A DNA stretch of 64,000 nucleotides from Dyella dinghuensis (GTDB lineage Bacteria; Pseudomonadota; Gammaproteobacteria; Xanthomonadales; Rhodanobacteraceae): positions 558,001-622,000 of the forward strand of contig NZ_RYZR01000005.1 in the NCBI RefSeq assembly GCF_003977615.1, read 5' to 3'. This document shows, one piece after another, positions 32,350-52,655 of this stretch. Positions within the stretch are counted from its first letter, which is position 1; every line of letters begins with the position of its first letter. The notes beneath the pieces are model-generated. The model worked only from the letters and a program-made list of their open reading frames with translations. It was not told the origin of the DNA and made no database searches. The translations under genes were made by a program, and so were the position numbers.

Positions 32350-33486
32350 TCAGTGATTGGCTTCGGTCTGCGACGTGCGGCGCTGGATCGAGCTGAGCGG
32401 AATCTTGATCGCGGTGGCGTCGGCACGATCGCCGTACATTACCGGCAGATCAGGCGCCATCGGGCCATCGGTACGCGGACCCAGCATCGACACCTTCAGT
32501 GCCTTCAGCGGGTGAGCGAACATGTCATCCACGGCCGTGCCTTCGAAGCCGCAATGCGCCATGCAGTTATCGCACTTCGGATTGATGCCCACACCGTATT
32601 TTTCCCACTCGGTGTCTTCCATCAATTCTTTGTACGTCTTGGCGTAGCCCTCATCGACCAGCAAGTAGCACGGCTTCTGCCAACCGAAGATGTTGTACGT
32701 CGGGTTGGACCACGGCGTGCACTGGTACGCCTGGTTGCCTGCGATGAAGTCCATGAACATCGCCGACTGGTTGAACGCCCACTTGCGCTTGCGCTCTTTG
32801 CCAATCTTGAAGATGTTGCGGAACAGCTGCTTGCTTTCGCTGCGGCCGAGGAACACGTCCTGACGCGGTGCATGCTGGTAGCTGTAGCCCGGCGACACAG
32901 TGATGCCTTCGACGCCCAGTTCCATCGCGTAGTCGAAGAAGTCGGCGACTTCTTCCGGCGGCTCGCTGTTGAACAGCGTGCAGTTCACGGTGACACGGAA
33001 GCCCTTGGACAGCGCCAGCTTGATCGCGGTGACAGCTTTTTCGAAAACGCCGTCCATGCACACGGACTTGTCGTGCTGCTTTTCCAGGCCATCGAGATGC
33101 ACGGACCAGGTGAAGTACGGCGACGGCTTGTATTCGTCGATGTGCTTGGGCAGCAGGATCGCGTTCGTGCACAGATAGATGAATTTCTTGCGCTCGATGA
33201 GGCCTTCGACGATTTTCGGCAGTTCCTTGTGGATAAGCGGCTCACCACCCGGAATGGAAACGACAGGTGCGTCGCATTCGTCCACCGCTGCCAGCGCCTG
33301 CTCCACGCTCATGCGTTTCTGCAGAATTTCCTTGGGCTGATCGATCTTGCCGCAACCGGCGCACGCCAGATTGCATTGGAACAATGGCTCCAACATCATC
33401 GCCAGCGGATAACGCTTTTGACCGCTCAGCTTCTTGCTGATGATGTAGCGAGCGATCGTCGTTTGTTGAATAAGCGGAATACCCAA
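32350..33486 (-). CDS. hpnH: Adenosyl-hopene transferase HpnH (radical SAM)
   Basis: 378 aa. The radical-SAM cluster motif is CNLACAGC with C38, C42 and C45, and the SAM-binding SIPGGEP follows at about 97-103. The C-terminal region has a Cys set CDNCMAHCGFEGTAVDD, typical of HpnH, which may hold a further cluster. HpnH joins a 5'-deoxyadenosyl radical to diploptene (hopene), giving adenosylhopane, the first step of extended hopanoid side chains. The product is the substrate of HpnG, encoded at 49562. It lies between idi and hpnB on the minus strand. Confidence 0.96.
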   Translation of the reverse strand: MGIPLIQQTTIARYIISKKLSGQKRYPLAMMLEPLFQCNLACAGCGKIDQPKEILQKRMSVEQALAAVDECDAPVVSIPGGEPLIHKELPKIVEGLIERKKFIYLCTNAILLPKHIDEYKPSPYFTWSVHLDGLEKQHDKSVCMDGVFEKAVTAIKLALSKGFRVTVNCTLFNSEPPEEVADFFDYAMELGVEGITVSPGYSYQHAPRQDVFLGRSESKQLFRNIFKIGKERKRKWAFNQSAMFMDFIAGNQAYQCTPWSNPTYNIFGWQKPCYLLVDEGYAKTYKELMEDTEWEKYGVGINPKCDNCMAHCGFEGTAVDDMFAHPLKALKVSMLGPRTDGPMAPDLPVMYGDRADATAIKIPLSSIQRRTSQTEANH

Positions 33487-33620: not shown

Positions 33621-34223
33621 CTAACCTGCGGACCTGGGGGCAAACACGTGCGCATGGTCACGGCGGATGCGCTCCCATTCCATCTTGAACCAGGGCGTGA
33701 ACGTGCCAGGATTGGCCGCCATCTCCGCGTCGAGCGCATCGGGGGCGATATACCGCAGGCCTGAGATTTCGTTCACGTTCACGGTCGGCGCATCGTCGCT
33801 GCGACCGGCGTAGACCCAGCACAATTCGTGTTCGGCACCATCGGCGTCGAACTGCGCCTGGTATTCGAACTTGAACAGATAGTCGAGTCCGCACTGCAGC
33901 CCAAGTTCTTCGCTCAGACGGCGATGAATGGCGTTGTCGATCGTCTCGCCGCGACGCGGATGACTGCAGCAGGTGTTGGACCAGAAGCCCGGCCACAGAC
34001 GCTTGCCGGGCGCACGCTGCTGCATCAGCAGCTCGCCTTTCGCATTGAATACGAAGATCGAGAAGGCGCGATGCAACGTGCCCTTCCCGACATGCGCGGA
34101 CGCCTTGTCGAGAAAGCCGACTTCACGGTCTTCGTGGTCGACCAGGACTAGCGGTTCGTCGTCGAAGGAAACCACTTCGCGCGAATCGCGCCATTCCTGG
34201 TGCTCGCGTTCTTGATTATCCAA
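33621..34223 (-). CDS. idi: Isopentenyl-diphosphate delta-isomerase, type 1
   Basis: 200 aa. The start is TTG at 34223, overlapping the last codons of the HMGR-mevalonate kinase fusion (stop 34216-34218); the upstream in-frame reading is only a shadow of that gene. It has the type 1 Nudix-related fold: the active-site Cys is in FWSNTCCSHPRRGE, the metal-binding His is in TLHRAFSIF, and the catalytic Glu region is AEHELCW. It interconverts IPP and DMAPP, which is essential in organisms using the mevalonate pathway because that pathway delivers only IPP. Its coupling to the mevalonate genes therefore makes biochemical sense. Confidence 0.94.
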   Translation of the reverse strand: MDNQEREHQEWRDSREVVSFDDEPLVLVDHEDREVGFLDKASAHVGKGTLHRAFSIFVFNAKGELLMQQRAPGKRLWPGFWSNTCCSHPRRGETIDNAIHRRLSEELGLQCGLDYLFKFEYQAQFDADGAEHELCWVYAGRSDDAPTVNVNEISGLRYIAPDALDAEMAANPGTFTPWFKMEWERIRRDHAHVFAPRSAG

Positions 34224-36495
34224 TCTCGACCTCCATCGCCTGATAGCCGGCATCGCGCATCGCCGCGGCGACTTTTTCCTTGTTCTGCGGGCACAGCGCG
34301 ACGATCGAACCGCCACCACCGCCACCCGTCAACTTGGCACCGAGTGCACCGTGTTCGCGTGCGATCTGTACCAGTTCTTCCACTTCCCAGCTCGACACGC
34401 GCAACGCGTTGAGCAGGCCGTGACAGATGTTCATCAGATCGCCAAGGCGTTCCAGATCGTATTGCTGCATGGCTTCGACGCCTTGCAACGTGAGTCCATC
34501 GATCTGCTGGAAGATGCCGTCGTACAGCGCCGGATTGCGCTGCCACGCGTTGCGCACCTTGCCGACCGTCACGGCGGTAAGGCTTTCCTTGCCGCTGATG
34601 CCGATCACCAGCGGAATGCGCTTGGCGAGTTTCAGCTCGCGCATCATCGGGGCATCGCCCTTCTGTGCGGCGCGCTTGTACAGCAACAGCTTGCCGTAGG
34701 TAGCAACGGTGTTGTCGATACCCGAAGCCGAACCGTGCGCGACTTCTTCGCAGCGGAAGGCGAGCGCGTTGATTTCGTCATCGCGCAGGCCCAGCTGATA
34801 GTGCTGATCGAGCGCGCGAATCACGGCGACGGCCATGGCAGCGGAGCCGCCCAGGCCCATCGCACGCGGCACGTTCGGGAACACTTCGATGCGCACCGAT
34901 CGTTCGGTCAGCTCCAGCTGATCGAAGATGATGCCGAGCGAGCGCTGGAACGAATCGCGGTGCGCCGGATCACGATGCAGGCGATATTCCACGCCCCAGC
35001 GCGGGATCAGCATGTCCACGCCGCCAGAGTTCGTATCCTGTGCCGTCGCGCGCACCGCGAGCGGCACCGGCGCAGCAATCGCATGACTGCCGTACACCAC
35101 GGCGTGCTCGCCGAGCAGAATGATCTTGCCGTGACCGCAGGCGCGATGATCGACCGCCGGTTGTTCCGTGATTTCCGGAACGCCGCGCGATTCTTTGCGC
35201 ACCTGGTCGACAATCTCCTGCGCCTTCCAGATCTTGATCTCGCCGCTTTCCACAAGTCGCTCGACCACGGTGTCAAAGATCTCCGCTGTTGCACCGGCTG
35301 CCACCGCCACGCTGCGTGCGTGCAGTGTCATGTGGCCCTGCTGGATACCTTCGGTAACCAGCGCACGCAGCGCCGAGAAGTTTTGTGCAAGACCCACCGC
35401 ACCCATCACTTCGGCCAGCTCGCGCGCGGTCTTCACGCCGAGCAAGCGCAGGTCGAGTGCGACGGTGGCGTTGGACTGCAGCGGACCGCCGACGATGCCG
35501 ACCTTCATCGGAATGTCGAGCTCGCCCACCAGCTCACCCTTCTCGCCTTTATACCAGCGCGTGAGCGAGGTGTAGCGGCCGCCGCGTGCAGCGTAGGCAT
35601 GTGCAGCTGCTTCAATAGCGCGCCAATCGTTGCCGGTCGCCAGCGCCACCGCATCCACGCCGTTCATCACGCCCTTGTTATGCGTGGCGGCACGATACGG
35701 ATCGATGCTGGCGAATTCGTTGGCGAGGATGATGCCGTCGCGTACTTCTTCGCCGGCGTAGCCCTTGCCGGTGAGGTTTTCAGCCGGAATCACGCAACGC
35801 GCGCGAACCATCGCACGGTCGGTGAGGTTGGAAAGAATGCGCAGGAAGACGCGGCCGCCGGTCATCGTTTCCACCAGCGAGGCAATGCCTTCGCACATGG
35901 TGTTGACGAGGTTCGCACCCATCGCATCGCGCGTGTCGACGAGCAGATGCACGACGAGCATGTCGCCGCCTTCTGCGCGTGCATGCGTGTGCACTTCCAG
36001 ATCTTGTGCGCCGCCGCCGCGCGCCACCATCTGCGGATGCAGACTGTTGGCGAGATTCAGGATCTCGGCCTTGCGTTGCATCAGCGCCGACTTTGCGTGC
36101 GCGAGATGCGGCACGTCGACCACCTGTACCTGACCGATCAAGATCGGCTCGGTGCTCTCGACTTTGAAGCCGCCGACACCACGCACCACTTTCGCAGCAG
36201 ACGAAAGCGCAGCAACGATGGACGGCTCCTCTACCACCAACGGCACGATGTAGTCGCGGCCATTGACGAGAAAGTTAAGTCCCAGGCCGACCGGCAGACC
36301 CATCACGCCGACGACGTTCTCGATCATCTTGTCGGCTTTGTGGATTTTCAGCGTGTGCTCGCCGGAGACGAGCGACTGATAATCCTCTGCCGACACCCAG
36401 CCGCGCTCATGAATGATGCGGACGCGATCGGAGACGGAAAGTTTGTAAAACGCAGGGAATCGGGAACGTTCGCTGCTCGATGTTTCGGCGCTCAT
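34216..36495 (-). CDS. HMG-CoA reductase (class II) fused to mevalonate kinase
   Basis: 759 aa from ATG 36495. Residues about 10-440 are a class II HMG-CoA reductase: ENVVGVMGLPVG (59-70), DAMGANLVNTMCEG with the catalytic Asp (190), THNKGVMNG with the catalytic Lys (274), and LHARSVA with the catalytic His (392). Residues about 450-759 are a GHMP mevalonate kinase: GHGKIILLGEHAVVYGS (454-470), MGLGGSAAMAVAVIRA as the ATP loop (546-561), the catalytic Asp in SGIDNTVA (594), and KLTGGGGGGS (721-730). All key residues of both enzymes are present with no internal stop, so a true bifunctional protein converting HMG-CoA to mevalonate 5-phosphate is expected. The two parts are joined by a short linker. 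idi overlaps its 3' end. Confidence 0.95.
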   Translation of the reverse strand: MSAETSSSERSRFPAFYKLSVSDRVRIIHERGWVSAEDYQSLVSGEHTLKIHKADKMIENVVGVMGLPVGLGLNFLVNGRDYIVPLVVEEPSIVAALSSAAKVVRGVGGFKVESTEPILIGQVQVVDVPHLAHAKSALMQRKAEILNLANSLHPQMVARGGGAQDLEVHTHARAEGGDMLVVHLLVDTRDAMGANLVNTMCEGIASLVETMTGGRVFLRILSNLTDRAMVRARCVIPAENLTGKGYAGEEVRDGIILANEFASIDPYRAATHNKGVMNGVDAVALATGNDWRAIEAAAHAYAARGGRYTSLTRWYKGEKGELVGELDIPMKVGIVGGPLQSNATVALDLRLLGVKTARELAEVMGAVGLAQNFSALRALVTEGIQQGHMTLHARSVAVAAGATAEIFDTVVERLVESGEIKIWKAQEIVDQVRKESRGVPEITEQPAVDHRACGHGKIILLGEHAVVYGSHAIAAPVPLAVRATAQDTNSGGVDMLIPRWGVEYRLHRDPAHRDSFQRSLGIIFDQLELTERSVRIEVFPNVPRAMGLGGSAAMAVAVIRALDQHYQLGLRDDEINALAFRCEEVAHGSASGIDNTVATYGKLLLYKRAAQKGDAPMMRELKLAKRIPLVIGISGKESLTAVTVGKVRNAWQRNPALYDGIFQQIDGLTLQGVEAMQQYDLERLGDLMNICHGLLNALRVSSWEVEELVQIAREHGALGAKLTGGGGGGSIVALCPQNKEKVAAAMRDAGYQAMEVEIG

Positions 36496-36616
36496 GCTTG
36501 AGGCACTCCGCGTAGGTCGATAATGTCGTAGCCCATCGCCTGGACGTTGCATGCAGCACGCCGACAATGTCCTTCAAAAACGTTGGCCATCACGCTAGAA
36601 ATCCTTGAAGGGCGAT

Positions 36617-37693
36617 TCACGTCTGGCGCATATGGCAGCTGACCCCATGCAATTCAAGTGGCAAGGGGATGACCTGCATACCGGCCGCAACAATGGCGCG
36701 CTCAAATGTCGCCAACCTTTCCGGATCATCGGCAAAAACCACGCCGAAGTCCCCACCAGCACCGCACGGCTTGAAACTGACGTTCGCCCGAACCGCCATT
36801 TCTAGCAAGCTTTTTTGCGCCGGTGAATAAATCTCCAAGCCACATGCCTCGCCAAAACTCTGCAACGCTGCGGCGTAGTCATTTGTCAGCCCAATGAAAG
36901 ATTGCGCCTTTTTTGCACGCAATGCATCCACGGCAGCCGCAGAAATCGTGCCGAGTTGCTGCATATGGAATGCGTACTTTGTTTCATTTGCGGTACGCCA
37001 CTGCGACAAATGCCGCAGCGAATGGGATGTCGAAACCGCTTGTCCTGACCAGACAAACAGCGAATGCACACCCGGCAGCGGCCATGTTTCATGTTTGAAA
37101 CTCGGCACATGGTCATGACCGGCGAGCTGATAGCTGATCAATCCGCCAGCGACACCCGCAGCGACATCGACGCCGCTACCGCGACCGCTCTGCCAACCAC
37201 CATGCATGCGATACAGACGGCGTGTCCATTGCACAGGATCGCCCATCGCTTCGCTATGGCCCGCATACGTCGCAAGCGCCGATGCAAGCGCAACCGTCAG
37301 CGCCGCGCTGGAGCCAAGGCCCAGCTTCACGCGTGACGCGCCATCGCCATAGAAAAAGCCGGATGTATCGAGATGGATGCTGAAGCCACCCGCCAATGGC
37401 GGTGCAAGCCCCTCGCTTCGCAGATCGTTCCACACATGCTCGATCAACGTGAGTTTGGCGGCGGTGGCTTTATCGCACTGCCATTGCAACGTGCCATCGC
37501 CATCGATTGAGATGCGTGCAGCAGCGACATCGAGATCCGGTGCATACACATCACATACACCGTCGTCCCGCGACACGATGCGCGCCTCGGCACGGCGATT
37601 GACCGCCAGCACCAGTGCAGGCGCGCCTTCGAGTACAGCGTAATCACCCAGCAATACCTGCTTGCCGGGTGCGCTCGCGGTGATTTCCATCAT
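36617..37693 (-). CDS. Phosphomevalonate kinase (GHMP family)
   Basis: 358 aa from ATG 37693 (a second ATG follows directly). It begins ITASAPGKQVLLGDYAVLEG, the GHMP N-terminal motif; the ATP loop is VKLGLGSSAALTVALASAL (about 131-149), and CGAGGDFGVVF near the C-terminus is the third GHMP motif. This should phosphorylate mevalonate 5-phosphate to the diphosphate, between the mevalonate kinase encoded at 34216 and the decarboxylase encoded at 37690. Its start overlaps the stop of the decarboxylase gene by four bases. A gap of 121 bases separates it from the fusion gene. A mevalonate-kinase role is less likely because that activity is already in the fusion. Confidence 0.87.
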   Translation of the reverse strand: MMEITASAPGKQVLLGDYAVLEGAPALVLAVNRRAEARIVSRDDGVCDVYAPDLDVAAARISIDGDGTLQWQCDKATAAKLTLIEHVWNDLRSEGLAPPLAGGFSIHLDTSGFFYGDGASRVKLGLGSSAALTVALASALATYAGHSEAMGDPVQWTRRLYRMHGGWQSGRGSGVDVAAGVAGGLISYQLAGHDHVPSFKHETWPLPGVHSLFVWSGQAVSTSHSLRHLSQWRTANETKYAFHMQQLGTISAAAVDALRAKKAQSFIGLTNDYAAALQSFGEACGLEIYSPAQKSLLEMAVRANVSFKPCGAGGDFGVVFADDPERLATFERAIVAAGMQVIPLPLELHGVSCHMRQT

Positions 37694-38718
37694 GCTTCCA
37701 CGGCATCCTTTGCGATGGCGCGCACACCCGCACCAAGGCCCGTGTCGTGGACATCCAGCACGCCCGGCACATCGCGCAATGCCGCTTTGACTTGTTCGAT
37801 CGCCGACGGCGCGCAAACCGCTTTCACCTGTGGACCGGCATCGACGGTGAAGAACACCGGCACGCCTTGCTGACGCAGGGCACGCACGCGATGCATGCAT
37901 TCCATCGTCGCACCGTTCCAATAAAGCAAACCAGGTTGCGATGCCATGGCCAACGCATGCATCTTCAGGCAGCTGTGTTCGGAAATCAGCGCCAGCGCAT
38001 CGAAATCACGCGCATGGATCGCATCGCGCGCGGTGGCGAGATCGGCTTCCTGCGTATCGATCCATGCCGATTGATAGGGCGATGTCCGCGCCGTGCGGTT
38101 CATGCCTTCGCTGGAACCAATCTGCTTGGCCGCCGTGGAAGTAATGGCTACGGCAACGCGCAACGGCCATGCATCGGCATCGAGCAGCGGTGTGGCAACC
38201 GAATCGGTGCCATCGGCACGCTGACCATGCGCCCACTCGACGTATCCGCCAAAAATCGAACGTGCAGCCGAACCGGAACAACGGCGCGCAAGCACCGACA
38301 GCTCTGCATCGCTGAGTTGAAGATTCAGCGCATTCGCGCCTGCATGCACCAATGCGGCAAAGCCCGATGCGGAAGAGGCCAAGCCCGCCGCGGTCGGAAA
38401 ATTATTCTGACTGGCGACGTCTGCGCCCCATGCCACACCTGCGCGCTCGCGCAGCAGGTTGAGGCACGCGGTTACACGCTTGGCTTCGGCTTCATCGCTG
38501 CGGCCATTGAGGCTGACGCGATCGTACGTTTGTTCCGGTGTGAAGCGCACCTGGGTGCGGGTCCACAAACTGTCCAGCGTGATCGATATGGAACCGACCA
38601 CCGGCAAGTTGAGCGCAGCATCGCGCTTACCCCAGTACTTGATCAGCGCGATATTTGGCTGAGCTTGCGAGGCAGCATGGAATGGGCCGTGTGCATCGGC
38701 GCGGGGTTCACGTGTCAT
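37690..38718 (-). CDS. mvaD: Diphosphomevalonate decarboxylase
   Basis: 342 aa from ATG 38718. Family hallmarks: SQAQPNIALIKYWGKRD near the N-terminus, VGSISITLDSL, NFPTAAGLASSASGFAALV as the ATP loop, and GSAARSIFGGYVEW. The catalytic Asp is in FTVDAGPQVKAVC. It converts mevalonate diphosphate to IPP with ATP and release of CO2. It is the first of the clustered mevalonate genes on the minus strand, in the order decarboxylase, phosphomevalonate kinase, reductase-kinase fusion, isomerase. A small secreted protein gene lies 54 bases upstream and may share the promoter. Confidence 0.95.
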   Translation of the reverse strand: MTREPRADAHGPFHAASQAQPNIALIKYWGKRDAALNLPVVGSISITLDSLWTRTQVRFTPEQTYDRVSLNGRSDEAEAKRVTACLNLLRERAGVAWGADVASQNNFPTAAGLASSASGFAALVHAGANALNLQLSDAELSVLARRCSGSAARSIFGGYVEWAHGQRADGTDSVATPLLDADAWPLRVAVAITSTAAKQIGSSEGMNRTARTSPYQSAWIDTQEADLATARDAIHARDFDALALISEHSCLKMHALAMASQPGLLYWNGATMECMHRVRALRQQGVPVFFTVDAGPQVKAVCAPSAIEQVKAALRDVPGVLDVHDTGLGAGVRAIAKDAVEA

Positions 38719-38772
38719 ACGTTTTGCTGGATGTGTCGCTGGGGGATGGAGTAGCAAAAAACCAAACAATCG

Positions 38773-39422: not shown

Positions 39423-40577
39423 ATGTCATCAAGCTGGATCGTCACCACCATTATCCATGGACTAGGCATCGCGCTGGCCTTTGCGGCGACAGGCTATACC
39501 TTCGTAGCGCTGTGGGCTGTGCTCAAAGCACGGCGCGTGTCCGATTTGAACGACATCGGCAAACAGCATCAGCGACCGGTAACCGTGCTCAAACCGCTGC
39601 ATGGCGCGGAACCCCGGCTCTACGAGAATCTGCGCAGCTTCTGCCTGCAGCAGCACCCGGACTTTCAGCTCATCTTCGGCGTGCGCGATCCGGACGACGA
39701 CGCGATCGCCGTCGTGCGACGACTCCAGTCGGAGTTTCCGCAGCTGGGCATCACGATGGTGATCGACCCGCGCGTGCATGGCGCGAACTTCAAGGTGAGC
39801 AATCTCTTGAACATGATGGCGCACGCCAACTACGACTGGCTCGTGCTGGCCGATGCCGACATCCACGTGCCCACCGATTACTTGACGCGCGTCACAGCTC
39901 CGCTTGCCGATCCGGGCGTGGGCATCGTGACGTGTCTCTACTACGGCATTCCCGGCCCCTCGTTCTGGTCGCGGCTTGGACGTCTGTTCATCGACGACTG
40001 GTTTGCGCCATCCGTCCGGCTCTCGCACGCGTTCGGATCGACGCGTTTTGCATTCGGCTCCACCATTTGCCTGCGCCGCGATGCGCTGCAAACCATCGGC
40101 GGCTTCGAAGCGCTGAACGACACCCTGGCCGATGATTTCTGGCTCGGCGAACTGACGCGCCGCGCGGGACTGCGCACGGTGCTTTCGGATGTCGTGGTGG
40201 GCACGGATGTAAACGAAAGCCAATTGAAAGATTTGTGGACCCACGAGCTGCGCTGGCTGCGAACCATTCGCTCGCTCGCCCCCTGGGGCTTTGCCATGAC
40301 GTTCGTGTGCTTCACCACGCCCCTGCTGTTGCTGGGCCTGTGTCTCGCGCCCGGTGCGATAACCGTGACGCTTGCCCTACTCGGTGCTGCGGCGCGGGTT
40401 TTGATACACTTTTTGCAGCGGCACACCGATGATCAAGCCTTCCCCTGGCATGAAGTCCTGTTGGTTCCTCTCCGCGACGTCTTGATGCTGATGGAATGGG
40501 CAGCCGCCCTCGCCGGATGGCAAGTAAGATGGCGCGGTCAGGTTCTGCATGCACGAGGCGGCGGTTCAGCGCCGTAG
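39423..40577 (+). CDS. hpnI: Hopanoid glucosaminyltransferase HpnI
   Basis: 384 aa. An N-terminal membrane helix (about 8-34) is followed by a GT2-type catalytic domain with VTVLKPLHGAEPRLYENL, ADADIHVPTDYL (the DxD motif), and LADDFWLGELTRR (the acceptor site). Two C-terminal helices lie at about 285-325. HpnI adds N-acetylglucosamine to bacteriohopanetetrol; the deacetylase HpnK and the radical-SAM enzyme HpnJ then give the cyclitol ether. It starts the hpnI-hpnJ-hpnK-hpnL operon, with hpnJ 78 bases downstream. Confidence 0.94.
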   Translation: MSSSWIVTTIIHGLGIALAFAATGYTFVALWAVLKARRVSDLNDIGKQHQRPVTVLKPLHGAEPRLYENLRSFCLQQHPDFQLIFGVRDPDDDAIAVVRRLQSEFPQLGITMVIDPRVHGANFKVSNLLNMMAHANYDWLVLADADIHVPTDYLTRVTAPLADPGVGIVTCLYYGIPGPSFWSRLGRLFIDDWFAPSVRLSHAFGSTRFAFGSTICLRRDALQTIGGFEALNDTLADDFWLGELTRRAGLRTVLSDVVVGTDVNESQLKDLWTHELRWLRTIRSLAPWGFAMTFVCFTTPLLLLGLCLAPGAITVTLALLGAAARVLIHFLQRHTDDQAFPWHEVLLVPLRDVLMLMEWAAALAGWQVRWRGQVLHARGGGSAP

Positions 40578-40655
40578 ACCTAACATTTTTGCTGGATTTC
40601 TGAACTATCTGCTGTCCCTGGGCACGGTTACTGCCCCCGCAGGAGTCACATCGTA

Positions 40656-42083
40656 ATGAAAACGCTTTTTCTGCAAGCTCCTTCCTTTGACGGCTTCGAT
40701 GGTGGCGCCGGTTCGCGTTATCAGGCCAAGCGCGAGATCAAGAGCTTCTGGTATCCGACCTGGTTGGCGCAGCCGGCCGCGATGGTTCCCGATTCGCGCG
40801 TGCTCGATGCACCGGCCGACGAAGTGTCGGTGGAAGAAAGCCTGCGCATCGCCGAAGGCTACGACCTGGTGATCATCCACACCAGCACGCCCTCGTTCCC
40901 GACCGACGCGAAATTCGCGGAGCTGCTGAAAGAGCGCAAGCCGAACGTAATGGTCGGTCTCGTCGGTGCGAAGGTTGCGGTGGATCCGTCCGGCTCGCTT
41001 ACCGCATCGTCCGCGATCGATTTCGTCGCACGCGAAGAATTCGACTACACCTGCAAGGAAGTGGCCGAAGGTCGTCCGTTCGAAAGCATCACCGGCATCA
41101 GCTATCGCCTCGCCGACGGTACCGTGCAGCACAACCCGCCGCGCGCGATGATCGAGAACATGGATGACCTGCCGTTCGTCGCGCCGATCTACAAGCGCGA
41201 CCTGAAGATCAGCAACTACTTCATCGGCTATCTCAACTATCCATACGTGTCGATCTACACGGGCCGCGGCTGCCGCTCCAAGTGCACCTTCTGCCTGTGG
41301 CCGCAGACCGTTGGCGGTCACCGCTACCGCACGCGCTCGGCCGCGAACGTGCTGGCCGAAGCGAAGTGGATCAAAGAGAACATGCCCGAAGTGAAGGAGC
41401 TGATGTTCGACGACGACACCTTCACCGACAGCTCCAACATGGAGCGCGTGCATGAGATCGCACGCGGTCTTGGTGCGATGGGCTGGACGTGGTCGTGCAA
41501 CGCGAAGGCGAACGTGCCGTACGAATCGCTGAAGATCATGAAGGAAAACGGTCTGCGTCTGCTGCTCGTGGGTTATGAGTCGGGCGACGATCAGATCCTG
41601 CACAACATCAAGAAAGGCCTGCGCACCGATATCGCGCGCCGCTTCACCGAAGACTGCCGCAAGCTGGGCATCACCATCCACGGCACCTTCATCCTCGGCC
41701 TGCCGGGCGAAACCAAGGAAACGATCGATAAAACGATCGCGTTCGCCAAGGAGATCAACCCGCACACCATCCAGGTGTCGCTGGCTGCGCCGTATCCGGG
41801 CACCTCGCTGTACAAGCAGGCGGTGGAGAACGGTTGGCTGAAGGAAAATGAAGCGGTCAACCTGGTCAACGACAAGGGCGTGCAGCTCGCGCTGATCGAG
41901 TACCCGCATCTGTCCAAGCAAGACATCTTCCACGGCGTCGAGAAGTTCTACCGGGCGTTCTATTTCCGCCCGTCGAAGATCTGGGAAATCGTCAAGGAAA
42001 TGCTCACCAGCTGGGACATGATGAAGCGCCGTCTGCGTGAAGGCGTGGAGTTCTTCCGCTTCCTGCGCGCGCACGAAGCCTGA
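40656..42083 (+). CDS. hpnJ: HpnJ, hopanoid cyclitol-ether radical SAM enzyme
   Basis: 475 aa. An N-terminal B12-binding-like domain (about 1-135) precedes the radical-SAM core with cluster motif CRSKCTFC (C206, C210, C213). Other conserved parts are YTGRGC just before it, MFDDDTFTDS, LLLVGYESGDDQILHNIKKG and GTFILGLPGETKETI. HpnJ converts the glucosamine head of bacteriohopanetetrol to the cyclopentane of the cyclitol ether. AGGAG at about 40641-40645 serves as the ribosome site. A REPIN-like repeat lies between hpnJ and hpnK. Confidence 0.95.
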   Translation: MKTLFLQAPSFDGFDGGAGSRYQAKREIKSFWYPTWLAQPAAMVPDSRVLDAPADEVSVEESLRIAEGYDLVIIHTSTPSFPTDAKFAELLKERKPNVMVGLVGAKVAVDPSGSLTASSAIDFVAREEFDYTCKEVAEGRPFESITGISYRLADGTVQHNPPRAMIENMDDLPFVAPIYKRDLKISNYFIGYLNYPYVSIYTGRGCRSKCTFCLWPQTVGGHRYRTRSAANVLAEAKWIKENMPEVKELMFDDDTFTDSSNMERVHEIARGLGAMGWTWSCNAKANVPYESLKIMKENGLRLLLVGYESGDDQILHNIKKGLRTDIARRFTEDCRKLGITIHGTFILGLPGETKETIDKTIAFAKEINPHTIQVSLAAPYPGTSLYKQAVENGWLKENEAVNLVNDKGVQLALIEYPHLSKQDIFHGVEKFYRAFYFRPSKIWEIVKEMLTSWDMMKRRLREGVEFFRFLRAHEA

Positions 42084-42141
42084 TCTTTTGAAGCGGAACT
42101 TTTGATGATTACCTCGCGAGCGCAGCGAGCCGCTTTTGCCT

Positions 42142-42272
42142 CCTCTCCCCTCCGGGGAGAGGATTGAGGTGAGGGGCCACGGCTCGCCTCATCCTGCAAT
42201 GAAATCGCGCTCCGAATCATCTCATCGGCAAGATCAGCCCCTCACCCCAACCCTCTCCCCGGAGGGGAGAGG
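42142..42272. repeat. REPIN-like element: two inverted REP hairpins at the hpnJ-hpnK junction
   Basis: The left arm has CCTCTCCCC (42142-42150), TCC, GGGGAGAGG (42154-42162), then ATTGAGGTGAGGGGC. The right arm is its inverse: CCCCTCACCCCAA, then CCTCTCCCC (42252-42260), GGA, GGGGAGAGG (42264-42272). The two are opposite copies with about 75 bases between, the layout of a REPIN. The right copy is read as coding sequence PLTPTLSPEGRG in hpnK. Confidence 0.8.
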
Positions 42273-43098
42273 GAGTAAGAGCAATCGCCCTCGACTGATC
42301 ATCACTGCGGACGACTTCGGTTTGCACCAGGCCGTCAACGAAGCCGTCGAACACGGTTACCGCGATGGCGTATTGCGCGCAGCGAGCTTGATGGTTGCCG
42401 CGCCCGCTGTCGCCGATGCCGTGGCACGCGCCAAGCAGAATCCCGGGCTGGCAGTCGGATTGCATCTTGTGCTCGCCGACGGCCGCGCGATATTGCCGCC
42501 GCAGCGCATTCCCGACCTGGTCGATGCGCATGGTATGTTCAACTCCGACATGGTGCGCAACGGCTTTCGTTTCTTCTTCCTGCCGCACGTACGCAAGCAA
42601 CTCGCCGACGAAATTCGCGCGCAATTCGAAGCCTTCGCGGCGACGGGATTGCAGCTGGATCACGTCAACGCGCACAAGCATTTCCATCTGCATCCCACGA
42701 TCCTGTCGATGATGCTGTCGATTGGCCGCGATTACGGCATGCACGCTATTCGCCTGCCCTCGGAACCCGGCATGGGTCCGTGGCTGCGGCCGTGGCTCGC
42801 ACTCATGCGCTGGCGCATGAAAGAAGCCGGCATCCGGTACAACGACCATGTGTTCGGCTTGCGCCATAGCGGCAGCATGGATGAAGCCGTGATGCTGGAT
42901 ATTCTCAAGCAACTGCCGCCGGGACTTTCCGAGGTGTATCTGCACCCCGCTTCGCATGGTCATATCACTGAGAGCATGGCGGACTATCGCCACGCCGACG
43001 AACTCGCTGCGTTGTTGTCGCCGCGCGTGCGCGAAACCATCGCCGAACGCTATGTGCTGTGCGACGGCTTCTCCGATCCCGCGGTGTCGGCGGCATGA
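42199..43098 (+). CDS. hpnK: Hopanoid deacetylase HpnK (YdjC family)
   Basis: 299 aa from ATG 42199. The deacetylase body starts with LIITADDFGLHQAVNEAVEH, whose ADDFG aspartate binds the metal. NAHKHFHLHPTIL and YLHPASHGH supply the further metal ligands typical of YdjC/HpnK. It removes the acetyl group from the GlcNAc added by HpnI. The N-terminal 30 residues are unusual: they come from the REPIN-like repeat and read PLTPTLSPEGRG. No good Shine-Dalgarno precedes ATG 42199 or the alternative TTG 42136, and no start codon after the repeat would keep the catalytic aspartate, apart from a CTG at 42295. The stop overlaps hpnL. Confidence 0.9.
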   Translation: MKSRSESSHRQDQPLTPTLSPEGRGSKSNRPRLIITADDFGLHQAVNEAVEHGYRDGVLRAASLMVAAPAVADAVARAKQNPGLAVGLHLVLADGRAILPPQRIPDLVDAHGMFNSDMVRNGFRFFFLPHVRKQLADEIRAQFEAFAATGLQLDHVNAHKHFHLHPTILSMMLSIGRDYGMHAIRLPSEPGMGPWLRPWLALMRWRMKEAGIRYNDHVFGLRHSGSMDEAVMLDILKQLPPGLSEVYLHPASHGHITESMADYRHADELAALLSPRVRETIAERYVLCDGFSDPAVSAA

Positions 43099-44135
43099 AC
43101 ATGCAGCGCCTGACTTATCTCGCCGGATTTCTCGGCCTGGCCGGCGCGATTGCGCTGATCGTGCATCAGGGCTGGGGCGAAGTGGTCGCTGCGATCGATC
43201 GCGCCGGCTGGCCGCTGTTGTGGTTGCTGCCGTTCCACATTGTGCCGCTCACGCTCGACGTGATCGCATGGCGCATCTTGCTGGCACCCCGCGACCAGCA
43301 CAAACGCGCGACGCTCCCCTTTCTGTTTTGGGTCGCATCCATTCGCGAAGCGAGCAACCGCCTGCTGCCCGTCGCCAACATCGGCGGCGAAATCATCGGC
43401 ATTCGCCTGGTGAAATGGCGCGGCATCGGTGGTGCCGCGGCGGCGGCAAGCATCATCATGGAAGTGCTGTTGACGCTGGTGAACCAGTACCTGTTCACCG
43501 CGCTGGGCATCATCCTGCTGGTCGAGCTGACGCGAAATATCAGCGCTTTCAGCACCGTGATTTCCGCGCTCGCGGCAAGCCTCCCGCTGCCGATTTTCCT
43601 GATCATCGTGCTTCGCCACGGCAAGGTATTTTCGCGCCTGGAAGGGTTCGCCGAAAAAATGCTGGGCGGCCGCACCAAGCTCACCGAGCTGATCGACGGC
43701 GCGGGTCTCGATCTGGAAATCCGTTCGCAGTATTCGCGTCCGCTGCGCCTGGTCGTCGCCTGCTTCTGGCAGTTCATGGGTTATGTGGTCGGCAGCTTTG
43801 AAACGTGGCTGGCGCTGCGTTTGCTCGGTTATCCGATCAGCGTGTGGGATGCGATTGCCATCGAAGCGGTCACGCAAGCGTTGCGCCACATCATTTTCGT
43901 GGTGCCTGCCGGCCTTGGCGTGCAGGAAGGCGGTCTGGTGCTGTTCGGCGATATCATCGGTTTGCCGCCTGAGGCGAGCGTGGCGCTGTCGCTGGTCAAA
44001 CGCATGCGCGAGATTGGTTTTGGCGTACCCGCCCTGATTTCCTGGCAGTGGGCCGAAGCGCGCCGGATGTATGCCGGTGCATCTACCAAAGAAACTTCGG
44101 TCAACCGCCCCTCTGATGAGAATGCAAGTTCATGA
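43095..44135 (+). CDS. hpnL: HpnL, hopanoid-cluster membrane protein (LPG-synthase-like flippase fold)
   Basis: 346 aa from ATG 43095, overlapping the hpnK stop. About eight predicted membrane helices, with family segments EASNRLLPVANIGGEIIGIR, IAIEAVTQALRHIIFVVPAG and LGVQEGG. This is the HpnL branch of the lysylphosphatidylglycerol-synthase transmembrane family, thought to move hopanoids between membrane leaflets or to the outer membrane; direct proof is lacking. It is coupled to the ferritin-like gene downstream by a four-base overlap. Confidence 0.9.
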   Translation: MNMQRLTYLAGFLGLAGAIALIVHQGWGEVVAAIDRAGWPLLWLLPFHIVPLTLDVIAWRILLAPRDQHKRATLPFLFWVASIREASNRLLPVANIGGEIIGIRLVKWRGIGGAAAAASIIMEVLLTLVNQYLFTALGIILLVELTRNISAFSTVISALAASLPLPIFLIIVLRHGKVFSRLEGFAEKMLGGRTKLTELIDGAGLDLEIRSQYSRPLRLVVACFWQFMGYVVGSFETWLALRLLGYPISVWDAIAIEAVTQALRHIIFVVPAGLGVQEGGLVLFGDIIGLPPEASVALSLVKRMREIGFGVPALISWQWAEARRMYAGASTKETSVNRPSDENASS

Positions 44136-45136
44136 CGCTCCAACACGAGGCCTTCGACACACAAACGCTGGTGCCCGGTTTTCACGAACCGGTGCTGCCG
44201 ACGGGTGAGCCGGACGAAGCCACCATTGCCGCCTCCGAGGAACGCTCACGCCATTGGTTGAGTGCTGGCGGCGAACGCATCAAATACGGTTCGGACGCGC
44301 ACAAAGAAATGATGTGTCGGATGTTCGCCGAGACGTTCAATCCCTATCGCCCGTCCGTACTCAAGTGGCCGACGCTGGACGACGCGGCGCTTCATCGCAT
44401 TACGTCGCTGCCGATCTGGGACATCGCCGTGCAGACCGAAGGCAAGGCGCGTCTGCGCATGGCCGCCTATGCACGCACGATCACCGATACGCCGATGCGC
44501 AATGCGCTCGCGCAAAACGCGTGGGAGGAAAACCGCCACAAGGAAGTGCTGTCCAAGATGGTGCTGCACTATGGCATTCCGCTCGTACCGGAGCCGCCGT
44601 ACGAGTACCCGCAGGATCCGGAATGGGCGTATCTGGTCACCGGTTATAGCGAATGCATCGATAGCTTCTTCGCGTTCGGCCTGTTCAAGGTCGCACACGA
44701 ATCGGGACTGTTCCCGCCCGAGCTGATCGACACCTTTGAACCCGTGATGCAGGAGGAATGCCGGCACATCCTGCTCTTCGCCAACTGGGTCGCCTGGCAT
44801 CGCGCCAACCTCAACCTGTTCCAGCGCATTGCCTTCGAATGGAAAGTGTTCCGCGTCTGGTGGTTCCTAGGGATGGAACGCATGGACCTGGCCAAGAGCC
44901 TGGACGGCGACGGCAACGAACACGCGCAGGACAACAACTTCACCGTAAACGGCGCGCAGTCGGTGACGGAGAAAGAGCTAAGCGTGGCCGAACTGATGGC
45001 CTGCTGCCTGAGCGAAAACGATCGCCGCTTCGCCGGTTACGATAAACGCCTGCTGCGACCGACCACCATGCCGTTCATGGTGAAATGCGCGTTGCCGATA
45101 CTGCGGTTTTTCGAGCGCCGCAAGAAAGCCAAGTGA
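44132..45136 (+). CDS. Ferritin-like di-iron protein of the hopanoid operon
   Basis: 334 aa, soluble, no signal peptide. A helical bundle carries the four-helix di-iron pattern: a Glu in AVQTEGKARLRM, ExxH in AWEENRHKEVL, a Glu in YSECIDSFFAFGL, and ExxH in VMQEECRHILLF. This is the E, ExxH, E, ExxH ligand set of ferritin-like oxygenases and oxidases. I do not recognise it as a named hopanoid gene. Its start overlaps the stop of hpnL by four bases and it is the last gene of the hpnIJKL operon, so an oxidation step on a hopanoid or its sugar head is a fair inference. Iron storage or a structural role cannot be excluded. A hairpin shared with hpnA follows. Confidence 0.87.
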   Translation: MTLQHEAFDTQTLVPGFHEPVLPTGEPDEATIAASEERSRHWLSAGGERIKYGSDAHKEMMCRMFAETFNPYRPSVLKWPTLDDAALHRITSLPIWDIAVQTEGKARLRMAAYARTITDTPMRNALAQNAWEENRHKEVLSKMVLHYGIPLVPEPPYEYPQDPEWAYLVTGYSECIDSFFAFGLFKVAHESGLFPPELIDTFEPVMQEECRHILLFANWVAWHRANLNLFQRIAFEWKVFRVWWFLGMERMDLAKSLDGDGNEHAQDNNFTVNGAQSVTEKELSVAELMACCLSENDRRFAGYDKRLLRPTTMPFMVKCALPILRFFERRKKAK

Positions 45137-45150
45137 TCCGTCGATGATTG

Positions 45151-45178
45151 CAAAGCTGACGCGTGCGCGTCAGCTTTG
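45151..45178. terminator. Bidirectional hairpin between the ferritin-like gene and hpnA
   Basis: CAAAGCTGACGC (45151-45162), loop GTGC, GCGTCAGCTTTG (45167-45178): a perfect 12-bp stem. T-tracts are short on both sides, so it is a moderate terminator. The hpnA stop codon (45170-45172) lies inside the stem. Confidence 0.65.
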
Positions 45179-46147
45179 TTGACGAAACCACCGCACGGCA
45201 TCTTCCAAAGCAAGCCGCGCAGGACGCGCTGTGTAGCCAAGTTCCCGTTCGGCCTTGGCGCTGGTGAAGAACATGCGCTTCTTCGACATACGAACTTCTT
45301 CCACCGTCGCAATCGGATTCATGCCAGTCAGACGGGCCCACGCTTCGGAAATGTGCGCGATCGGCATCACCACACCATGCGGCAGGCGAACTTTCGGCGG
45401 CTTGCGTCCGGCGATATCGGCAATCTCGGTGAGCACGTCGCGCAGGCTCATGTTGTAGCCGCCGAGGATGTAGCGCTCGCCGACAACACCGCGTTCGAAT
45501 GCAAGCCAGTGACCCTCAGCGACATCCTCGACATGCACGATGTTCAATCCCGTATCCACGTACGCAGGGAGGCGCCCCAACATCGCGTCGCGCACCACGC
45601 GACCGGTCGGCGTGGGCTTGATGTCGTTCGGACCAATCGGCGTCGATGGATTGACGATCACTACCGGCGTGCCTTCGGCGGCGAACTGCCTCGCCACTTC
45701 TTCGGCGAGAAACTTGGAGCGTTTGTAGTGGCCGATCATGTCGTCCACCGTCACGGGCGTGGTTTCGCTGCCGGGTGTTCCGTCTTTCGGAATACCCAGC
45801 GTGGCCACGCTGCTGGTGTAAACAATGCGCGGCACCCCAACCTGTCGCGCAGCTTCCAGAATCGAACGCGTGCCCTCGACGTTGGCTCGATACAACTCGT
45901 TGGGATCGGGCGCCCACAGACGGTAATCGGCTGCGACATGGAACAGCGCATCGCAACCATCGCAGGCCGGCAGCAGGGAAGCGGCTTGCGTGAGGTCCCC
46001 TTCGGCCACCTCGACGTCCAAACCCTGCAGATTACGCCGGTCCGAGTTGGGGCGCGCCAGCACACGCACGCTGTGCCCATCGCGCAACAAGCGCCGTGCA
46101 ACGGCCGAACCCACGAAACCGGTGGCACCGGTGACCAGCGCCCTCAC
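45170..46147 (-). CDS. hpnA: HpnA, hopanoid-associated sugar/dihydroflavonol-type reductase
   Basis: 325 aa extended SDR. The NAD(P) motif GATGFVGSAVARRLL is at residues 7-21; the active site includes VYTSSVATLG and YKRSK (Tyr-x-x-x-Lys). HpnA resembles dihydroflavonol-4-reductases and occurs widely in hopanoid clusters, but the exact reaction is not settled; it may act on the ribosyl or tetrol side chain. It is convergent with the ferritin-like gene and divergent from the squalene-synthase operon, with about 280 bases upstream that must hold both promoters. Confidence 0.92.
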   Translation of the reverse strand: MRALVTGATGFVGSAVARRLLRDGHSVRVLARPNSDRRNLQGLDVEVAEGDLTQAASLLPACDGCDALFHVAADYRLWAPDPNELYRANVEGTRSILEAARQVGVPRIVYTSSVATLGIPKDGTPGSETTPVTVDDMIGHYKRSKFLAEEVARQFAAEGTPVVIVNPSTPIGPNDIKPTPTGRVVRDAMLGRLPAYVDTGLNIVHVEDVAEGHWLAFERGVVGERYILGGYNMSLRDVLTEIADIAGRKPPKVRLPHGVVMPIAHISEAWARLTGMNPIATVEEVRMSKKRMFFTSAKAERELGYTARPARLALEDAVRWFRQQS

Positions 46148-46428
46148 TGCGTTATCGCCGCGGATAGGTCGGAAGGCACAGCAAAACGAGCGGCTTGCTC
46201 ACTCGAAAGAGTTAGACATGTCATGCGACAATTATGGACGAAAAGCGCTTGCTGCTTCAGCATATTGGGCATGCTAGCCCCTCCCCGCCAGCCCGCTGTC
46301 CGTCCCCTTATGACCCTACGTGCCCCACTGCACCGTTTGTCAATGGAAACGGGTACCGCCGAACGCCGTGGCGTTCCGGATTCGTACGGCCATGGGTGTG
46401 GCATAATCCCGGCGGCCGAGGCATGCCC

Positions 46429-47598
46429 ATGATCGAACTGAATAGTGCCACCGCCATTGCTGGACGCGACGAGGCCAACACCTACCAGGATGAGATCCTG
46501 CCCAAGGTGTCCCGGACCTTCGCGCTGACCATCCCGCAGCTTCCTCCGGAACTGCGTCGTGCGGTTGCCAATGCATATTTGCTGTGTCGCATCGCCGACA
46601 CGATTGAAGACGAGCCGGCATTGTCGGCCGAGCAAAAGCGCGTCTTCGAAAATGCGTTCGTCAATGCCGTCACCGGCAATGCCGATGCACAGCGTGTCGC
46701 ACATACCGTTGCACCGCTATTGTCGAATGCGACGCTGGAAGCCGAGCGCGACCTGATGCGCCAACTGCCGTTGGTGCTGCAGGTCACGCGCAGTCTGAAT
46801 CCGGAGCAGCAGGCATCGATCGTGAAGTGCCTGAAGATCATGTCGCACGGCATGCACGAGTTTCAGCGCAAGGCCGGCATACAAGGTCTGGCTACGCTGC
46901 ACGACATGGATCGCTATTGCTACTGCGTGGCGGGTGTCGTCGGCGAAATGCTGACAGAGATGTTCGTCGATTTCGAACCGGCGCTGGCACCTCATCGCAA
47001 CACGATGCTGCGTCTGGCCGTGTCCTTCGGACAGGGCCTGCAGATGACCAACATCCTCAAGGATCAGTGGGAAGATCGCGCACGCGGCGCCTGCTGGTTG
47101 CCGCAGGATATGTTCGCGCATCACGGTGTGAATCTTTCCACGTTGAAGTCGGGCACGCAGAACGCCGGTTATGCCGCCACGATGTCCGAACTCGTCGGCA
47201 TTGCGCACGCGCATCTTCGCTATGCGTTGGACTACACCTTGCTGCTTCCTGCAAAACACGCAGGTGTTCGCCGCTTCTGTTTGTGGGCGATCGGCATGGC
47301 GCTGCTGACGCTGCGCAATCTGCACAACAACCTCGATTTCTCGGCGGGTACGCAGATCAAGATCTCGCGTAATGCCGTCGCTCGCACGATTCTGTTTACA
47401 CGCATCTTCGGCAAATCCAACACTGCGCTGCGCTGGTTGTTCTCGACCACCGCGCGGGGCTTGCCGCTGACGCCGCTGGCTACTGAATGGAACGAACCGT
47501 CGGCGCCCGGACGTACGTGGCCCAAGCGTTCCATTCCGCACATCGCTGAAGTTGCGTTGTTCGAACCGGCGGACGTCCACGAAGCGCAGCATCGATGA
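46429..47598 (+). CDS. Squalene synthase of the eukaryotic (single-enzyme) type
   Basis: 389 aa from ATG 46429 (GAGG seven bases upstream; ATG 46423 is too close to it). Two Asp-rich prenyl-diphosphate motifs are seen: DTIED (57-61) and DQWED (212-216). Other conserved parts are SRTFALTIPQLP, MDRYCYCVAGVVGEMLTEMF and GLQMTNILKDQWEDRARGAC. The first motif and the YCYCVAGVVG segment match squalene synthases (Sqs/FDFT1 type), not HpnD, and no hpnC or hpnE is nearby. It should condense two farnesyl diphosphates to squalene with NADPH in one enzyme. A CATAAT hexamer at 46402 may be part of its promoter. Its stop overlaps the shc start by four bases. Confidence 0.88.
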   Translation: MIELNSATAIAGRDEANTYQDEILPKVSRTFALTIPQLPPELRRAVANAYLLCRIADTIEDEPALSAEQKRVFENAFVNAVTGNADAQRVAHTVAPLLSNATLEAERDLMRQLPLVLQVTRSLNPEQQASIVKCLKIMSHGMHEFQRKAGIQGLATLHDMDRYCYCVAGVVGEMLTEMFVDFEPALAPHRNTMLRLAVSFGQGLQMTNILKDQWEDRARGACWLPQDMFAHHGVNLSTLKSGTQNAGYAATMSELVGIAHAHLRYALDYTLLLPAKHAGVRRFCLWAIGMALLTLRNLHNNLDFSAGTQIKISRNAVARTILFTRIFGKSNTALRWLFSTTARGLPLTPLATEWNEPSAPGRTWPKRSIPHIAEVALFEPADVHEAQHR

Positions 47599-49565
47599 AT
47601 TCGACGACACCACTTACCGCTCCCACCACTGACGACCTTTTCCAGCCTTCACAGACGAGCGGTCTGGATCAGGCCATCGAGCGTGGCCGTGTGACGCTGC
47701 TGGAGCATCAGCACAAGGACGGCCACTGGTGCTTTGAGCTGGAGTCCGACTGCACGATCACCGCCGAATACATCCTGATGATGCATTTCATGGATGAAAT
47801 CGACGATGTCTTGCAGGAGAAGATGGCGCGCTATCTGCGCGCCACGCAGGCAACGCAGACGCACGGCGGCTGGTCGCAGTATTACGGCGGCGCCATCGAT
47901 CTTTCGTGCACGATCAAGGCGTATTTCGCGCTGAAGGCGGCCGGTGAAGATCCGGATGCCGAACACATGCGCATTGCGCGCGAGGCCGTGCTTTCGCATG
48001 GTGGTGCGGCAAAAGCGAATGTGTTTACGCGCATTCTGCTCGCCCTGTTCCAGCAGGTGCCGTGGCGCGCGACGCCATACGTGCCGGTCGAGATCATGCT
48101 GTTCCCGCGCTGGGCGCCGTTCCACATCGAGAAGATCTCGTATTGGGCGCGCACCACGCTGGTGCCGCTGACGATTCTCTGCTCGTTGAAGGCCAAGGCG
48201 GCCAATCCACGCAACATCAACATTCGCGAATTGTTTGTCACGCCGCCGGAAGAGGAACGTCATTACTTTGTCCGCGGCGGTTTGCTCAATCGCTCGTTCC
48301 TTGCGCTGGATAAAGTCGGCCGCTTCATCGATCGCTTCATGCCGAAGTCGATCCGCAAGCGCGCCGTCAGCAAAGCGGAATCGTGGTTCCGCGAGCGTTT
48401 GAATGGCGAAGACGGCATCGGTGCGATTTTCCCGCCGATGGTCAACAGCTATGAAGCGATGGCGCTGCTGGGTTATCCCAAAGATCACCCCGCTCGCCAG
48501 ACCTGCCTGCGTTCGATCCAGAACCTGGTGGTGCATCGCGACGATGGTTCGGCGTACTGCCAGCCATGCGTATCGCCGGTGTGGGACACCGTGTGGAGCG
48601 CGCTGACGCTGATGCACACCAGCGACGACGCGACGACGCAATCGGCCATCGCCAAGTCCGTCGACTGGTTGCGCTCCAAGCAGGAAATGGAACTGAAAGG
48701 CGACTGGGCAGCGCGCGCACCCGACGCGCCACCAGGCGGTTGGGCGTTCCAGTACAACAACGCGTATTACCCGGATATCGACGACACGGCGGTAGCCGCC
48801 GCGTTGCTGCACATCCAGGATCGCCGTAACGGCGAATCCGGCCGTCATCGCTTCAACACCGATCGCGCGGCGGACTGGATGATTGCGCTGCAATCGAAGA
48901 ACGGCGGTTTCGCCGCCTTCGATGCGGACAACACGCACTACTACCTCAACGCGATTCCGTTTGCCGATCACGGCGCGCTGCTCGATCCACCGACCGAAGA
49001 TGTGTCCGGCCGCGTCGCCGCGTGCCTGGGCGTGCTTGCACGCCCGCAGGATCGCGAAAGCCTGCGCCGTTGCGTCGACTATCTACGCAGCACGCAGTTG
49101 GAAGATGGCAGCTGGTGGGGCCGCTGGGGCAGCAATTACATCTACGGCACCTGGAGCGTGCTCGGCGGTCTTGCCCTGGCGGGCGAAGATCCGCAGCAGC
49201 CATATATCCGTAAGTCCATCGAATGGCTGTGTTCGCGCCAGCACGCTGATGGCGGCTGGGGCGAGACCAACGACAGCTACATCGAGCCGGCACTGCGTGG
49301 CACCAACCACAACGTCAGCACGCCGCAATCCACGGCATGGGCGCTGCTTGCGCAGATGGCGATGGGTGAAGTGCATTCCGATTCCGTCAAGCGCGGCATC
49401 GCCTTTCTGCTCGCCGATCAGCAGGCAACGGGGCTGTGGTATCACCCATCGCACAATGCGCCCGGTTTCCCGCGCGTGTATTACCTGAAGTATCACGGCT
49501 ACACCGCGTACTTCCCGCTGTGGGCACTATCGCGTTACCGGCAACTGAAGAAGTCCTCTGCTTGA
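47595..49565 (+). CDS. shc: Squalene-hopene cyclase
   Basis: 656 aa, normal for the family. The catalytic DxDD motif is DIDDTA with D394, D396 and D397. QW-type repeats recur through the chain, for example DGHWCFELE near the N-terminus, NGGFAAFD, DGSWWGRWG and DGGWGETNDSY. It is a monotopic membrane enzyme that cyclises squalene to hopene (diploptene) and hopanol. The upstream gene supplies squalene; HpnG follows with its TTG start inside the last codons. Confidence 0.97.
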   Translation: MNSTTPLTAPTTDDLFQPSQTSGLDQAIERGRVTLLEHQHKDGHWCFELESDCTITAEYILMMHFMDEIDDVLQEKMARYLRATQATQTHGGWSQYYGGAIDLSCTIKAYFALKAAGEDPDAEHMRIAREAVLSHGGAAKANVFTRILLALFQQVPWRATPYVPVEIMLFPRWAPFHIEKISYWARTTLVPLTILCSLKAKAANPRNINIRELFVTPPEEERHYFVRGGLLNRSFLALDKVGRFIDRFMPKSIRKRAVSKAESWFRERLNGEDGIGAIFPPMVNSYEAMALLGYPKDHPARQTCLRSIQNLVVHRDDGSAYCQPCVSPVWDTVWSALTLMHTSDDATTQSAIAKSVDWLRSKQEMELKGDWAARAPDAPPGGWAFQYNNAYYPDIDDTAVAAALLHIQDRRNGESGRHRFNTDRAADWMIALQSKNGGFAAFDADNTHYYLNAIPFADHGALLDPPTEDVSGRVAACLGVLARPQDRESLRRCVDYLRSTQLEDGSWWGRWGSNYIYGTWSVLGGLALAGEDPQQPYIRKSIEWLCSRQHADGGWGETNDSYIEPALRGTNHNVSTPQSTAWALLAQMAMGEVHSDSVKRGIAFLLADQQATGLWYHPSHNAPGFPRVYYLKYHGYTAYFPLWALSRYRQLKKSSA

Positions 49566-52611: not shown

Positions 52612-52655
52612 GCAGTCATAATACGCATCGTCCCGATTTGTCATTCCGGAACCGC

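Follow-up and report, generated by a model that had tools for sequence, protein, structure and literature searches.

A fused HMG-CoA reductase and mevalonate kinase in the mevalonate operon of Dyella dinghuensis

A stretch of 64,000 nucleotides from Dyella dinghuensis (assembly GCF_003977615.1, contig NZ_RYZR01000005.1, positions 558,001 to 622,000; hereafter the window) encodes one protein in which a class II 3-hydroxy-3-methylglutaryl coenzyme A (HMG-CoA) reductase (HMGR) is joined to a mevalonate kinase. The fusion is genuine, and both halves are complete. We interpret its product as a bifunctional biosynthetic enzyme of a mevalonate operon that has replaced the methylerythritol phosphate (MEP) pathway in Dyella, and put the probability of this reading at about 0.88. 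The reductase and kinase activities are inferred from sequence. The N-terminal half would reduce HMG-CoA to mevalonate, with NADPH as the probable cofactor, and the C-terminal GHMP kinase would convert mevalonate and ATP to mevalonate 5-phosphate. The adjoining phosphomevalonate kinase, decarboxylase and isomerase would finish the route to isopentenyl diphosphate (IPP) and dimethylallyl diphosphate (DMAPP), from which hopanoids and the other isoprenoids of the cell would be made.

An earlier note on this DNA had placed the gene at 34216–36495, and these coordinates proved correct. The gene lies on the minus strand and reads from an ATG at 36495 to a stop at 34216, 759 codons and a stop without internal interruption; in the list of open reading frames (ORFs) the frame reaches further, to a TTG at 36567. 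The single open frame claimed by the note was thereby borne out, and neither a stop nor a frameshift occurred at residues 440–455, where the note had said that one would speak against the fusion. Pfam matched HMG-CoA_red at residues 21–393 (E = 9.9e-107), GHMP_kinases_N at 528–600 and GHMP_kinases_C at 674–751. Both halves scored above the curated cut-offs of NCBIfam equivalog models: TIGR00532 (HMG-CoA reductase) gave 407.6 bits against 259.95 over profile positions 15–395 of 395, and TIGR00549 (mevalonate kinase) gave 234 bits against 163.05 over positions 2–276 of 276. The reductase occupies residues about 10–437 and the kinase about 452–759. The gene is single-copy in its own genome.

Carriage of the fusion went together with loss of MEP pathway genes. 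Among 299 genomes sampled from the order, in a cross-table that treats related genomes as independent, dxr turned up in 4 of the 53 genomes that carry the fusion, versus 238 of 243 non-carriers; three genomes with a truncated fusion, none of them with dxr, were set aside. The four dxr-positive carriers were the window's own genome, G174, G115 and G227. No match to ispG or ispH was found in any of seven sampled genomes of the window's genus, the own genome included, or in three of three genomes from another family of the order. Across the seven genus genomes, dxr was intact in one (G174), degenerate in the own genome and without a match in five. The own copy (L157:8720-9883, G000:C7) is an open frame scoring 239.1 bits against a family cut-off of 315.7. 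It occupies the customary position, preceded by frr, uppS and cdsA and followed by rseP and bamA (gene names by our own reading). Compared with three intact copies, its motifs have decayed from NKES to NNEP, from DSEHN to STAAH and from NKGLE to NTGLE. With ispG and ispH gone and dxr degenerate, the fusion enzyme most likely makes the isoprenoids of this cell, and the genus shows the replacement of an essential pathway caught at an intermediate stage. All seven genus genomes contain dxs (own copy G000:C10:458215-459939), which also serves thiamin and pyridoxal synthesis; its retention fits this role. The match to dxs is interrupted in each of these genomes, between model positions about 189 and 217–230.

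The surroundings of the gene are those of a mevalonate operon. In the window, one strand carries in order the decarboxylase, the probable phosphomevalonate kinase, the fusion, the IPP isomerase, hpnH and hpnB, the last scoring just below its cut-off (375.8 against 379.25). Relatives were scanned with one genome per species, giving 220 coding stretches, from which 80 loci were retained, and neighbours were counted where enough flank was available. A same-strand IPP isomerase lay just downstream of the fusion in 75 of 75 loci, a phosphomevalonate kinase upstream in 61 of 69 and a diphosphomevalonate decarboxylase in 55 of 65. Downstream hpnH was present in 39 of 65 loci, and 36 of the 80 loci, many of them short, had none of seven tested hopanoid genes. 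These counts tie the fusion to the mevalonate pathway generally, a tie to hopanoids being confined to some lineages.

In the reductase half, the residues E83, K267, D283 and H381 of Pseudomonas mevalonii HMGR (PmHMGR), which we take to be its catalytic set, align to E90, K274, D290 and H388. These four were identical in all 98 rows of an alignment of fusions (own copy entered twice; some rows may be one gene with a differing trimmed start). Of the catalytic residues named in the earlier note, K274 is therefore upheld, while D190 (in DAMGAN) and H392 are invariant but fall outside the aligned catalytic set. The alignment extends to PmHMGR residue 426 of 428, so that the C-terminal flap domain is present, and helices were predicted at 383–437 in this region. 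The cofactor site differs. Position D146 of PmHMGR, presumably the cofactor-site Asp that marks an NADH-specific class II subgroup, corresponds to His153 in 98 of 98 fusions, which thus lack that mark, and Arg159 is nearly invariant (at least 90% of the alignment). Asp153 with Leu or His at 159 occurs in six of the 20 HMGR-only rows, those closest to the query (46–49% identity); 13 others (33–42%) combine Ala, Ile or Leu at 153 with Arg at 159, and the last (26%) carries Ser and Gln. The HMGR-only rows located next to GHMP kinases were among those without Asp153 and with Arg159. A pneumococcal HMGR, NADPH-bound according to its entry title, has Tyr and Arg at the aligned sites. The cofactor is thus probably NADPH, judging from these alignments.

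The search for proteins spanning both domains that the earlier note had proposed returned matches across both halves at 80 of 80 kept loci. The nearest relatives in the scan were Dyella, and these close relatives carry the fusion rather than the two separate genes that the note had held out as an alternative. At less than 90% pairwise identity, 59 fusion proteins were retained, the window's included, from Dyella, Nevskia, Wenzhouxiangella and others. The ratio of nonsynonymous to synonymous substitution rates (dN/dS) was 0.04–0.24 for both halves in four of five pairs (dS 0.7–1.0); the fifth pair was saturated. A full-length fusion was found in 53 of the 299 order genomes (truncated in 3 more), which places it in 9 of the 76 or more genomes that this order sample holds from the window's family; it was also found in 9 of 369 genomes of a class sample (counting the own genome; a contig end truncates one more) and in 1 of 299 genomes of a phylum sample, the own genome. 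In L027, L129 and L153 the fusion is cut by contig ends, and the metagenome bin L015 has a frame break near residue 142, away from the junction. None of 58 matching plasmid records covered 80% of the query. Bins titled Acidobacteriota, Calditrichia, Verrucomicrobia, Rhodospirillales and Eremiobacteraeota also hold the fusion, although the titles may reflect mis-binning; the Eremiobacteraeota fusion (L056:6439-8679), 95% identical to the window's and with Dyella-like neighbours, is probably mis-binned. HMGR-only proteins at 46–52% identity exist in other groups. In at least nine class-sample genomes, a distant HMGR (40–43%) shared a contig with a separate GHMP-kinase match (23–29%), which may be another GHMP kinase. 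No intermediate with two adjacent, closely related genes was seen in the order, class or phylum samples. A candidate for such a split, a free-standing mevalonate kinase directly downstream of the fusion of carrier G119 (L150:3967-4926), was rejected, being a tandem partial copy of that fusion's kinase half (78% identity).

In quick trees, a single branch separated the 59 fused HMGR halves from all 20 HMGR-only rows, with a Shimodaira–Hasegawa-like approximate likelihood ratio test (SH-aLRT) support of 97, or of 100 without the three longest rows (L128, L147 and L148); a first HMGR tree with just 6 of the 20 had given 95. With the fused HMGRs apart from every unfused row compared, a single fusion event is the likeliest origin. 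Pairwise distances of the two halves correlated (r = 0.883), as expected if both travel together. The window's protein clustered with Dyella, Dokdonella and Nevskia sequences. Placing the four Rhodanobacteraceae rows in one clade was rejected by the approximately unbiased test (p-AU 3e-72; the group was picked after viewing the HMGR tree). Together with the patchy carriage in the family, this non-monophyly points to horizontal transfer, perhaps more than once. The fusion would then have arisen probably once, within a mevalonate operon, and spread both vertically and horizontally, its pathway displacing the MEP pathway in Dyella.

Besides the relatedness of the genomes in the dxr cross-table, several points weigh against this reading. 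Carriers G115 and G227, which belong to the same family, keep dxr, ispG and ispH and have no match to PF01154 (HMG-CoA synthase); the fusion may not be the main isoprenoid route there, and dual-pathway or salvage use is possible in these two. A PF01154 match was found in only 32 of the 53 carriers, leaving the other 21 with no such candidate for the first step of the pathway. The own genome has an HMG-CoA-synthase-like gene elsewhere; it speaks for the reading by scoring above both Pfam cut-offs and against it by scoring below the NCBIfam ones. The phosphomevalonate kinase candidate is likewise below every NCBIfam cut-off listed, though above the Pfam GHMP cut-off. The NADPH assignment depends on two aligned sites, and the trees came with long-branch warnings.

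The kinase half has the complete GHMP motifs described in the earlier note. K457, S551, E583, D594 and K721 were identical in 98 of 98 rows, K457 and D594 being the catalytic Lys and Asp of mevalonate kinase, and GLGxSA (547–552) and KLTGGGGGG (721–729) were invariant or nearly so. An AlphaFold model (67-row alignment; mean predicted local distance difference test, pLDDT, 88.2) showed folded parts at about 10–437 and 451–759. In fold searches, the reductase half matched PmHMGR structures (TMt 0.93–0.96) and the kinase half the mevalonate kinases of Leishmania major and Methanosarcina mazei (TMt 0.79–0.86). The linker between them is short, variable and probably disordered, according to the model and the alignment; the interval 413–454 ranges from 34 to 52 residues among relatives. 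Channelling of mevalonate from one half to the other is plausible, and the tether might, speculatively, raise flux, either by retaining mevalonate nearby or by drawing the reversible reductase step forward. Alternatively, the fusion may merely fix equal amounts and co-inheritance of the two enzymes, with neither channelling nor a kinetic gain, and we rate this at only a little under even odds. It is favoured by the linker, which varies in sequence and length, and by the predicted template modelling score (pTM) of 0.60, since with a disordered linker the mutual placement of the domains, and hence the geometry that channelling needs, is not fixed by the model. The additional free-standing kinase of G119 also fits it. 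Against it, none of the samples searched revealed a carrier whose two halves are separate proteins at high identity.

A further-reaching scenario combines these observations, and we hold it to be unlikely. A reversible reductase close to mevalonate-degrading enzymes would have been turned into a one-way biosynthetic enzyme by the altered cofactor site and the ATP-driven kinase. The C-terminal flap of PmHMGR moves during catalysis, and the kinase is attached directly behind the corresponding flap of the fusion. Mounted on this mobile element, which bears His388, the kinase could couple flap opening, mevalonate release and phosphorylation, and whole lineages would thereby have dropped the MEP pathway. 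Since Arg159 also occurs in unfused HMGRs that are probably biosynthetic, the ancestor may equally have been a biosynthetic enzyme, and the degradative origin is weakened.

It is far less probable still that the fusion pairs a mevalonate-degrading reductase, as in P. mevalonii, with a kinase salvaging imported mevalonate. The nearest solved HMGR is indeed PmHMGR (51% identity), the name of an NCBIfam model says 'degradative', and the two carriers with MEP genes and no HMG-CoA synthase match could be read in this way. However, the operon partners (phosphomevalonate kinase, decarboxylase and isomerase) are biosynthetic, most carriers are without dxr, every fusion has His, accompanied by Arg159, where the nearest unfused relatives have Asp, and a mevalonate-consuming kinase would compete with degradation. 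A sequencing, assembly or gene-calling artefact, by which two adjacent genes were misread as one, might be suggested by the class-sample contigs with separate genes and by the broken frame in L015, but it is ruled out by one-frame fusions in independent genomes, some of them single-contig (121 of 161 loci, the 161 also counting loci retrieved on account of other genes and some genes that entered twice), the L015 break not being at the junction.

The biosynthetic fusion resembles several known proteins in part. PmHMGR (PDB 1qax, 8gdn, 9dcp), which we take to serve mevalonate degradation, shares the full-length fold including the C-terminal part and the catalytic residues, but stands alone and has the cofactor-site Asp in place of His. 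The Streptococcus pneumoniae HMGR (5wpj) has the same fold at 45% identity, and its run past the cofactor site, PSIVKRGGGARDL, resembles PQMVARGGGAQDL of the fusion; it differs in being stand-alone, in having Tyr at the His site and in being less similar overall than PmHMGR. The mevalonate kinases of L. major (2hfs, 2hfu) and M. mazei (4hac, 6mde) share the fold and GHMP motifs at 32–33% identity and are also stand-alone. MvaE of Enterococcus faecalis, presumably a fusion of acetoacetyl-CoA thiolase N-terminal to HMGR, is likewise a natural fusion with a class II HMGR of the mevalonate pathway, but its partner is a thiolase, it has no kinase, and its HMGR part (7m1z, named acetyl-CoA C-acetyltransferase) is 40% identical. 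That layout was not found here: Pfam gave no thiolase match in the fusion protein, whose HMGR match begins at residue 21. IspDF is a natural bifunctional enzyme for isoprenoid precursors in bacteria, according to passages of PMC13001223 and PMC10663253; it belongs to the MEP pathway, its enzymes are unrelated, and its steps are non-consecutive, unlike the two consecutive steps of the fusion.

By title or abstract opening, no published account of an HMGR–mevalonate kinase fusion was among the matches listed, a weak absence because most subscription journals lay outside the search; this pairing of enzymes seems not to have been described in the literature searched. HMG-CoA reductase is commonly regarded as the chief point of control in the mevalonate pathway. 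The fusion joins it to the enzyme that uses up mevalonate, and this natural protein is conserved in many species. It makes the question of intermediate channelling in fusions of consecutive enzymes testable from a single expression plasmid, and a ready-made reductase-kinase may help engineers who now express both enzymes separately.

Table 1. Features of the window around the fusion gene (window coordinates).
Feature	Position	Strand	Basis
hpnH, hopanoid gene, downstream neighbour	32350..33486	minus	TIGR03470, above cut-off
Type 1 isopentenyl-diphosphate isomerase	33621..34325	minus	NF002995 169.8 bits, TIGR02150 147.3 bits, both above cut-off
HMG-CoA reductase / mevalonate kinase fusion gene, 759 aa	34216..36495	minus	ORF, Pfam and NCBIfam
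Mevalonate kinase half, residues 452-759	34216..35142	minus	K457, S551, E583, D594 invariant among fusions
Linker, residues 438-450	35146..35184	minus	pLDDT <50; predicted structure and alignment
Class II HMG-CoA reductase half, residues 1-437, including C-terminal flap domain	35185..36495	minus	E90, K274, D290, H388 invariant among fusions
GHMP kinase, probable phosphomevalonate kinase	36617..37690	minus	best NCBIfam TIGR01220, 74.9 bits, below cut-off 165.7
Diphosphomevalonate decarboxylase	37690..38769	minus	TIGR01240, 299.8 bits, above cut-off
Hopanoid block	39423..50287		hpnI, hpnJ, hpnK, hpnL (+), hpnA (-), squalene/phytoene-synthase-family protein, squalene-hopene cyclase, hpnG-like (+)
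Farnesyl diphosphate synthase	52638..53555	plus	NF045485, 327.3 bits, above cut-off

The isomerase ORF as listed begins inside the fusion gene, and its family match starts at residue 56. The hopanoid block, in which the hpnG-like protein scores just below its cut-off, is likely a consumer of the isoprenoids made. Next to hpnL, a 334-residue protein (44132-45136) gave no Pfam or NCBIfam match at E 0.001; it recurs in several Dyella and Nevskia loci. For Wenzhouxiangella, the part of PMC7691419 consulted describes a mevalonate pathway and a squalene synthase, both missing in Marinicella, and does not mention the fusion. Of the four operon proteins, the probable phosphomevalonate kinase varies most, with identity falling to about 30% in relatives. 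In five loci (L034, L047, L057, L061 and L081), a squalene/phytoene-synthase-family gene sits between this kinase and the fusion and breaks the usual order.

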